From an uncultured Bacteroidales bacterium (GTDB taxonomy: Bacteria; Bacteroidota; Bacteroidia; Bacteroidales; UBA932), in NCBI GenBank assembly GCA_900316955.1, contig ONEX01000001.1, forward strand, positions 126,630 through 190,629: a stretch of DNA of 64,000 nucleotides. Reading direction: 5' to 3'. Below, in pieces: positions 37,337 to 38,315 of the stretch. The notes beneath the pieces are model-generated. The model ran no database searches. It was not told the origin of the DNA and was given only the letters and a program-made list of their open reading frames with translations. The translations under genes were made by a program, and so were the position numbers. Position 1 is the first letter of the stretch; every line of letters starts with the position of its first letter.

Positions 37337-38077
37337 CTATTCGTACCGCAGGTACACCGCCGTCGCGGCAAGGACCGCGGCTGTTTCCGTGCGCAGGCGT
37401 GAAGCGCCGAGGTGCACGGGGATGTAGCCGTTCTCCACGGCCAGGTGCGCTTCTTCCGGGGAGAAGTCCCCTTCGGGGCCGATGAGAATGGTGACCTCGT
37501 TCCCTTCGTAGGCTTTCAACGCGTCCTGGATGGAGATGCGCTTGGTGTCACCTTCGAAGCAGTAGGCGATGAGTTTGAGAGGCGCACTGTCATTTCGACC
37601 GAGCGAAGCGAGTGGAGAAATCTGTATGAAATCCTTGACGGATATGGGTTCCGCGATCTCGGGGATGCGGGATTTGAGGGACTGCTTGGTGGCGGAGAGG
37701 GCGATGCGGGCGGCGCGGTCGGTCTTGTAGACCTTGCGCTCGGAGCGCTCGCCGATGGTGGGCACGATGCGGTCTACACCTACTTCGGTGGCTTTTTCCA
37801 CGAACCACTCGAACCGGTCGTTGTTCTTGGTGGGACAGCAGGCGACGGTGAGCCGGTAGGGATGGCCGCCCCAGCCGGGGAAGGCCTCGAGGACCTCGGC
37901 CTCGGCCCCCTTGGGGTTGTCATCGACCAGTCGGCAGCGGAACATCGACCCGAGACCGTCGATCACGTGAATCTCGTCGCCGGCGCGGTGCCGCAGTACG
38001 CGGCAGCAGTGGCCGGACTCGTCGGCGTCCAGCCGGCAGAAGCGGCCGTCGGCCTCATACGCAAAAAACACTTCCAT
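37337..38077 (-). CDS. rsmE: 16S rRNA (uracil-1498-N3)-methyltransferase
   Basis: RsmE methylates U1498 of 16S rRNA. The 246-residue SPOUT enzyme shows an N-terminal PUA-like part (HCCRVLRHRAGDEIHVIDGL), the WFVEKATEVGVDRIVPTIGE core, and the C-terminal knot with IGPEGDFSPEEAHLA and LGASRLRTETAAVLAATAVY. ATG 38077 begins MEVFFAYEADG. The reading frame stays open far upstream through the repeat array, but that stretch is not coding. A palindromic repeat inserted in frame adds QISPLASLGRNDSAP between the KDF and LKLIAYCFEG segments. Confidence 0.93.
   Translation of the reverse strand: MEVFFAYEADGRFCRLDADESGHCCRVLRHRAGDEIHVIDGLGSMFRCRLVDDNPKGAEAEVLEAFPGWGGHPYRLTVACCPTKNNDRFEWFVEKATEVGVDRIVPTIGERSERKVYKTDRAARIALSATKQSLKSRIPEIAEPISVKDFIQISPLASLGRNDSAPLKLIAYCFEGDTKRISIQDALKAYEGNEVTILIGPEGDFSPEEAHLAVENGYIPVHLGASRLRTETAAVLAATAVYLRYE
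37588..37623. repeat. Palindromic repeat inserted in frame in rsmE
   Basis: The sequence begins TGTCATTTCGACCGAGCGAA and ends GTGGAGAAATCT, with ATTTC and GAAAT as outer arms and GCGAAGCGA in the centre. From memory, this is a widespread dispersed repeat in Bacteroidetes and other phyla. It lies inside rsmE and is translated on the minus strand as about 13 extra residues without breaking the frame. Confidence 0.75.
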
Positions 38078-38106: not shown

Positions 38107-38315
38107 TGGCGCAGGTGTATGGTGTTGTTGGCGCAGGTGGAAACACTTTTTGGCGCAGGTGCGGAAAAAGGGTGGGGACCTGCGCCGCGAATCGTGCTCC
38201 TACGCTCTCCAATGGAGCAGGTCCCCCAGCAAAAAACACACCTGCGCCAAAAACGGTGTACACCTGCGCCAAGAAGCGAGGGGACCTGCACCAAAAAACG
38301 TAGAGACCTGCTCCA
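38107..38315. repeat. Mirror-symmetric 22-bp-period repeat array
   Basis: The motif TGGCGCAGGTG (variants TGGNGCAGGTS) occurs nine times. Forward copies begin at 38107, 38129, 38151 and 38213. Reverse copies end at 38187, 38249, 38271, 38293 and 38315. Neighbouring copies in each arm are exactly 22 bp apart, and the 11-bp spacers vary but tend to end in T runs. Four forward/reverse pairs have the same midpoint (38200). The 345-bp gap between rsmE and the YfcE-like gene holds this array, a short GTCGCA-TTT-TGCGAC hairpin (38371-38385) and the promoter below. 22 is not a multiple of 3, so it is not a peptide repeat. Confidence 0.85.

Follow-up and report, generated by a model that had tools for sequence, protein, structure and literature searches.

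The window, as we call the whole stretch of 64,000 nucleotides analysed here, contains an array of short repeats that is very probably a solo, non-autonomous REPIN-like copy, its partner being a RAYT-type Y1 HUH transposase encoded on another contig (C22) of the same genome (G000). This reading rests on the association of such arrays with the gene, their geometry, the predicted fold of a relative of the transposase, the joint change of motif and protein, and the absence of the element from a sister genome.

Nine copies of the motif make up the array, forward copies starting at 38107, 38129, 38151 and 38213 and reverse copies ending at 38187, 38249, 38271, 38293 and 38315. The window contains 11 exact copies of the motif TGGNGCAGGT where 0.53 would be expected, and none of 100 dinucleotide shuffles has as many; eight of the 11 fall inside the 209 bp from 38107 to 38315, where the ninth copy reads CGGCGCAGGT. 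A preliminary description of the stretch had placed all nine copies at these positions, and its 22-bp steps, both of its 62-bp distances between inner and outer copies, its shared midpoint at 38200 and its dyad are likewise correct. The motif that it gave as 11 bp is real, but the conserved unit is 10 bp and the eleventh base varies. We also agree that the array is neither a CRISPR nor a peptide repeat. The features are as follows.

38107 to 38315, no strand assigned: the whole element as bounded by its motif copies, added DNA in the rsmE-like/yfcE-like intergenic region (copy positions and gap comparison).
38107 to 38150, forward strand: left array of two forward half-sites (38107-38116 and 38129-38138) at 22-bp steps, with spacers (22-bp rule, 129 twins).
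38151 to 38187, forward strand: core hairpin 1 (arm 38151-38160, 17-nt loop 38161-38177, arm 38178-38187).
38188 to 38212, no strand assigned: the 25-bp centre separating the core hairpins.
38213 to 38249, reverse strand: core hairpin 2 (arm 38213-38222, 17-nt loop 38223-38239, arm 38240-38249), inverted relative to hairpin 1 on the basis of the loop relation over 100 related twins.
38250 to 38315, reverse strand: right array of three reverse half-sites (38262-38271, 38284-38293 and 38306-38315) at 22-bp steps (22-bp rule, 129 twins).
G000, contig C22, 67173-68135: RAYT-type Y1 HUH transposase gene of the same genome, bracketed by two arrays of the window's motif.
TGGCGCAGGT: candidate single half-site for the C22 transposase.

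A palindrome-like stretch, CATTTCGACCGAGCGAAGCGAGTGGAGAAATC, was also seen in frame within the rsmE-like gene (window 37580-37630); it presumably resembles a repeat widespread in Bacteroidetes genomes.

The search for further arrays that the preliminary description had proposed, naming the lack of any second array of this geometry as the outcome that would count against it, turned up four more in the window's own genome and others in related species. Within G000 (3.13 Mb in 38 contigs), the exact pattern TGGNGCAGGT-N12-TGGNGCAGGT occurs 17 times and forms five arrays, two on C15, one on C20 (the window) and two on C22. In the core common to all five, the arms start at 0, 27, 62 and 89, in the order arm, 17-nt loop, arm, 25-bp centre, arm, 17-nt loop, arm; that is, two hairpins with 10-bp arms and 17-nt loops in inverted order. 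Beyond this core, half-sites run outward, mostly 22 bp apart; in the window the left side has two and the right side three. The two C22 arrays bracket the Y1 HUH transposase gene. Arrays of the exact pattern were found in 4 of 101 genomes, namely the window's own and 3 of 60 others of the genus, and in none of 40 genomes of other families. A transposase flanked by the window's motif is present in two of these four genomes (G000 and G037); in the third, G005, both transposases found carry other motifs, and in the fourth, G055 (82% complete), no transposase was found at 1e-30, the assemblies of G005 and G055 being fragmentary.

Several other repeats were noticed at these loci. G000 carries a second element family with the arm TGTACAAGGT, represented by a hairpin pair beside the C23 transposase (L035 1364-1473) and by an apparently solo pair at C12:156319-156428. 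A different dispersed repeat of about 160 bp adjoins the first C15 array (L031 2186-2349) and has further matches of about 80% in contigs C21 and C67 of genome G003. An 18-bp direct repeat resembling GGATGAGGATC-AGTCCG follows a G037 array (L014 1541-1650), and in L133 (4806-5060) an array is followed by an inverted-repeat series with another motif, CGCGACGGGA, and 34-bp centres.

By itself, the C22 protein matched no Pfam or NCBIfam transposase model. At E <= 0.05, Pfam Y1_Tnp matched 20 of 29 relatives and NCBIfam REP_Tyr_transpos matched 8 of the 29. Residues H68, H70, Y128 and N132 are invariant in 29/29 and 52/52 aligned proteins (alignment A1, 29 of 30 loci with L060 left out, and alignment A2, 52 of 80 loci), giving the HUH motif and single catalytic tyrosine motif of a RAYT. 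The predicted fold of a relative, as expected of a RAYT, is that of a REP transposase, with 4er8, the Escherichia coli REP transposase with its REP hairpin, as best match, although the best Foldseek E-value is just 1.5e-3. The proteins are about 305 residues long, with a long C-terminal region and an AYIPRNA-like (AY[IV]PRNA-like) tyrosine motif. Among the genomes sampled, the family is confined to one genus: at 1e-30 it was found in 23 of 101 genomes, all of the window's genus, and profile matches at 1e-20 occurred in 3 of 393 genomes drawn evenly across the order (204 genera), again all of that genus. For the wider comparison we used the best 80 of 138 relatives from named genomes; by their titles, 79 of these best 80 are from Bacteroidales or Bacteroidia, many of them ruminant, and one is from Fibrobacter. 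In the distant relative L062 (31% identity), a hairpin pair with the arm GTGTTTAGTGGT was seen by eye in the 3' flank, and the design may therefore extend past the close family.

A scan independent of the motif found twin hairpins at 74 of the 80 transposase loci (137 twins in 432 kb) and none at the other six, which were left out of the tree and covariation analyses. Only 2 of 30 control loci (104 kb) had twins, one being the window itself and the other L085, where the motif is unrelated. Both loops measure 17 nt in 105 of the 137 twins, and the centre is 25-26 bp long in 62 twins and 36-38 bp in 67; the half-site, loop, base-table and spacer-pairing analyses do not include the eight twins whose centres have other lengths. 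At 43 of the 74 loci the twins lie on both sides of the gene, which is thus hairpin-flanked as RAYT genes are; by eye, the flanking twins are inverted in L034 and L049 and direct in others, for example L044 and L066. Most of those on the 3' side (49/56) fall in the interval from -72 to +132 nt relative to the stop codon. The arm consensus differs by clade, with 32 combinations of motif and spacing class in the 74 loci, and ends in GGT in 72 of them. The core consists of two 37-nt units, an inverted pair of hairpin repeats in the 20-40 nt range of REPs and REPINs. Loop 1 shares its consensus with the reverse complement of loop 2, and loop complementarity is 9.06 of 17 within an element against 7.09 between elements (maximum of 500 shuffles, 7.63; three duplicates additionally left out). 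The loop relation of the core is that of a REPIN. The base tables next to the arms contain no GT[AG]G at the hairpin feet. GTGG is found inside the 25-bp centres instead, in 19 of 43 against 6.7 expected, and the window's centre contains CTAC; GTAG within the centres was counted in 7/43 and 6/51 against 5.4 and 13.0 expected.

Motif and protein change together. On a quick tree of the 74 proteins the spacing class changes 4 times, compared with 23.7 in shuffles (0/500 as low), and motif distance is correlated with protein distance (r 0.61, Mantel p 0.001). When 160 variable columns were ranked by independent pairs (residues in L104 numbering), arm bases 3 and 4 both had residue 169 at the top, base 5 had 173 and base 6 had 179; close runners-up were 158 for base 3 and 172, 274 and 76 for base 4, some of them far from the 169-179 stretch, and the predicted model places a helix at 169-176. 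Arm base 4 is G with Lys169 at 41/46 loci and C with Arg169 at 18/18; base 5 is G with Glu173 at 33/33 and C with Arg173 at 32/39; base 6 is A with Gly or Ala179 at 47/47 and C with His or Arg179 at 24/24. These raw counts are inflated by kinship, and the columns and residue groups were picked on the same data. A check set of 24 of the 30 further genome-search loci held 15 identical to training loci and nine that were not; among those nine, base 5 fits at all eight loci that have G or C (the ninth has A), base 6 fits at 9/9, and base 4 at 3/4 of those with G or C. The C22 protein has Arg, Glu, Phe and His at 169, 173, 176 and 179, as predicted from the window's bases GCGC, and the second G000 transposase, on C23, has Arg, Arg, Phe and Gly at those positions and carries the TGTACAAGGT twins. 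Well supported branches give just 2 to 6 independent pairs per base, too few for any single sign test to reach significance. Taken together, the covariation of arm bases 3-6 with residues 169, 173 and 179 hints at a candidate code.

In the closely related genome G003, whose YfcE-like protein is 94% identical, we found neither an exact-pattern array nor, at 1e-30, a transposase of this kind. At the G003 site corresponding to the first C15 site, a segment of 209 bp is missing: the array itself, some 10 bp to the left of it and, to the right, a degenerate half-site and a few bases. In G000 this segment stands between 7-bp direct repeats, CCGGGAA, where G003 has a single CTGGGAA; the exact ends are uncertain because the left flank has diverged in G003. 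The counterpart of the C22 site lacks 3150 bp including the whole gene unit, and its matching flanks are 2 bp apart by BLAST ends, although the right end of the segment is uncertain because of right-flank repeats in G000. At two matching sites the element is absent from the sister genome, through either insertion in one lineage or loss in the other. At the window site itself, the rsmE-like/yfcE-like gap is 345 bp in G000. Among 21 loci with both genes in reach, the two genes still lie close together and divergent in three other genomes, with gaps of 37, 46 and 96 bp; in G003 another gene was seen by eye between the two. As a separate observation, at the right end of the C22 unit (L033 5240-5380) the flank TATCCCAGGAA-CCGC-GAGG appears three times between half-sites, and one copy runs on into a piece resembling the uninterrupted junction of G003.

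Absence at matching sites, together with the invariance of the HUH and tyrosine residues, tells against a domesticated system in which the transposase would bind the arrays without moving them, the arrays acting as regulatory or chromosome-organising sites, here upstream of two divergent genes. We regard this alternative as unlikely, although it is the strongest of those considered and several observations are in keeping with it. Copy number is low, with about five arrays of the window's motif in G000, and the half-sites of arrays are kept while their spacers diverge. Moreover, the loci L119, L143, L174 and L180, with flanking DNA alike and with diverged transposase sequences and motifs, suggest that one chromosomal place holds differing transposases and arm motifs across species. 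Pairwise flank matches mark a probable shared place for L119, L120, L135, L140, L143, L144, L165, L173, L174, L176, L180 and L182. With place shared and genes diverged, the gene unit seems to have been inherited at a fixed site and to have changed fast, rather than to have jumped often.

The 22-bp step itself, read in the preliminary description as two helical turns, recurs in relatives. Using the local motif at a match of at least 8/10, extra half-sites stand at offset 22 in 41 left and 41 right flanks of 129 twins, at offset 44 in 29 and 20, and at offset 66 in 8 and 7, with none in the wrong orientation at these three offsets. Offset 21 yields 3 and 7, and all offsets from 11 to 79 outside 21-23, 43-45 and 65-67 yield 32 matches in total. 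At a looser cut-off, half-sites are present on both sides of 37 twins, on the left only of 7, on the right only of 7 and on neither side of 78; arrays are therefore common but not universal. That the motif is what is kept, as first suggested, holds among related elements, in which the spacers vary. Mirror spacers next to the core pair at 4.08 of 12 positions compared with 3.75 in shuffles (maximum of 1000 shuffles 4.78; 37 elements). With the motif kept and the mirror spacers pairing no more than by chance, the data speak for protein sites, probably along one face of the duplex, more than for arrays folded into a long helix.

The same spacers bear on the helices that the preliminary description expected of the folded array: the two core hairpins stand, and the window region folds far better than 200 shuffles (RNA z -6.5, 0/200 as good), as its proposed folding check now shows, but the spacers add no pairing beyond chance. 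It is very improbable that this folding reflects a structured RNA, a terminator or stability element in the transcripts of the neighbouring genes, since DNA folds equally well on each strand (z about -6.7), the array spacers do not pair beyond chance, the window has no Rfam match at gathering thresholds, the array lies upstream of both neighbour genes and the motif is tied to a DNA transposase. Least probable of all is an array of iteron type that serves an unrelated DNA-binding protein in replication, in partition or as an operator, a reading to which the direct half-sites, two-turn steps and dyad symmetry lend themselves and which the preliminary description had raised in comparing the array to iterons; the gene recurring beside such arrays is a transposase, whose sequence the motif follows, and there are several chromosomal copies in G000. 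Translation of the neighbours of the arrays showed no replication initiator gene.

A small gene lies upstream of the transposase at 46 of the 80 named loci and at 13 of the 30 genome-search loci, which overlap with the named ones. Its products fall into two classes of about 117 and 140 residues (39 of 44 with a start codon in alignment A3) and matched no recurrent known family. The gap to the transposase is 1-3 nt in 29/47, and 45 5' twins lie outside the small gene, none between it and the transposase. In L116, an ORF with an HRDC domain (Pfam E 1.4e-15) replaces the usual small gene; judged by eye, the ORFs at L118 and L109 are similar.

Among known systems, IS200/IS605 elements, in which tnpB is often linked, differ in that the protein here is about twice as long, with an added C-terminal region, and is accompanied by the small partner gene. 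Shared with them are the Y1 HUH fold and hairpin ends (PMC6006769). The likeness to RAYTs and REPtrons is closer: in the passages compared, these too have a Y1 HUH gene with flanking hairpin repeats, inverted repeat pairs, dispersed copies and a separate repeat family for each transposase (PMC6006769; PMC8266576), and the predicted fold is nearest 4er8. Unlike them, as those passages describe them, the present elements have no GT[AG]G at the hairpin feet, long 17-nt loops, outward 22-bp half-site arrays, a conserved small gene upstream at many loci and about five array copies in their own genome rather than many, and the protein, at about 305 residues against 165 for 4er8, has a long C-terminal region. 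Canonical REPs and REPINs exceed 100 copies per genome (PMC2817692). We looked for the GTAG foot and the high copy number and found neither, and for this reason do not file the element as a canonical REP. In the classification of Quentin et al. (PMC6006769), the passages on RAYT subclass 2.6 describe Bacteroidetes genes with atypical flanking secondary structures and copies elsewhere in the genome, as here, but with a YIH[QN]NP motif and a median length of 179, so that the present proteins fall outside the subclass on both motif and length. TIRYTs, in the account compared (PMC3733652), likewise resemble RAYT genes and have repeats at their flanks that bear no relation to GTAG REPs; some of these are double palindromes and some recur in the genome. 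Here, however, the flanking twins are direct or inverted, and 22-bp half-site arrays go without mention in those TIRtron descriptions. Nor do the RAYT descriptions compared mention phased half-site arrays or the partner gene. The element is RAYT-associated and REPIN-like, a variant with phased half-site arrays and a partner gene; as the repeat partner of a RAYT-type Y1 HUH transposase, it is not the wholly undescribed element first supposed.

How such a REPIN-like copy and its transposase would work together we infer from the sequences, and this includes cutting, half-site binding, movement and the part of the small protein. The HUH-tyrosine domain would cut and join single-stranded DNA at the twin hairpin, and the stretch around residues 169-179 may read the 10-bp arm as a double helix, in the hairpin stem or in duplex DNA. 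Set at two-turn steps, the half-sites further out would then be extra copies of the site on one DNA face, and we propose that several transposase molecules could be loaded or held there. Tentatively, then, this may be a single-strand DNA transposase for which double-stranded half-sites, set in helical phase, form a recruiting ladder; one short helix would read each of them by a simple code that evolves, and a new small protein would act as helper and partner. We know of no RAYT or IS200-type enzyme that loads by way of a phased half-site ladder.

RAYT groups recognise their REPs in different ways, and only for a few enzymes is it understood how a RAYT locates the repeats of its own family, according to the passages compared (PMC8266576). 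The present set offers dozens of enzyme-repeat pairs set apart by a small number of bases and residues; the candidate specificity code may thus be readable from nature and would be directly testable.
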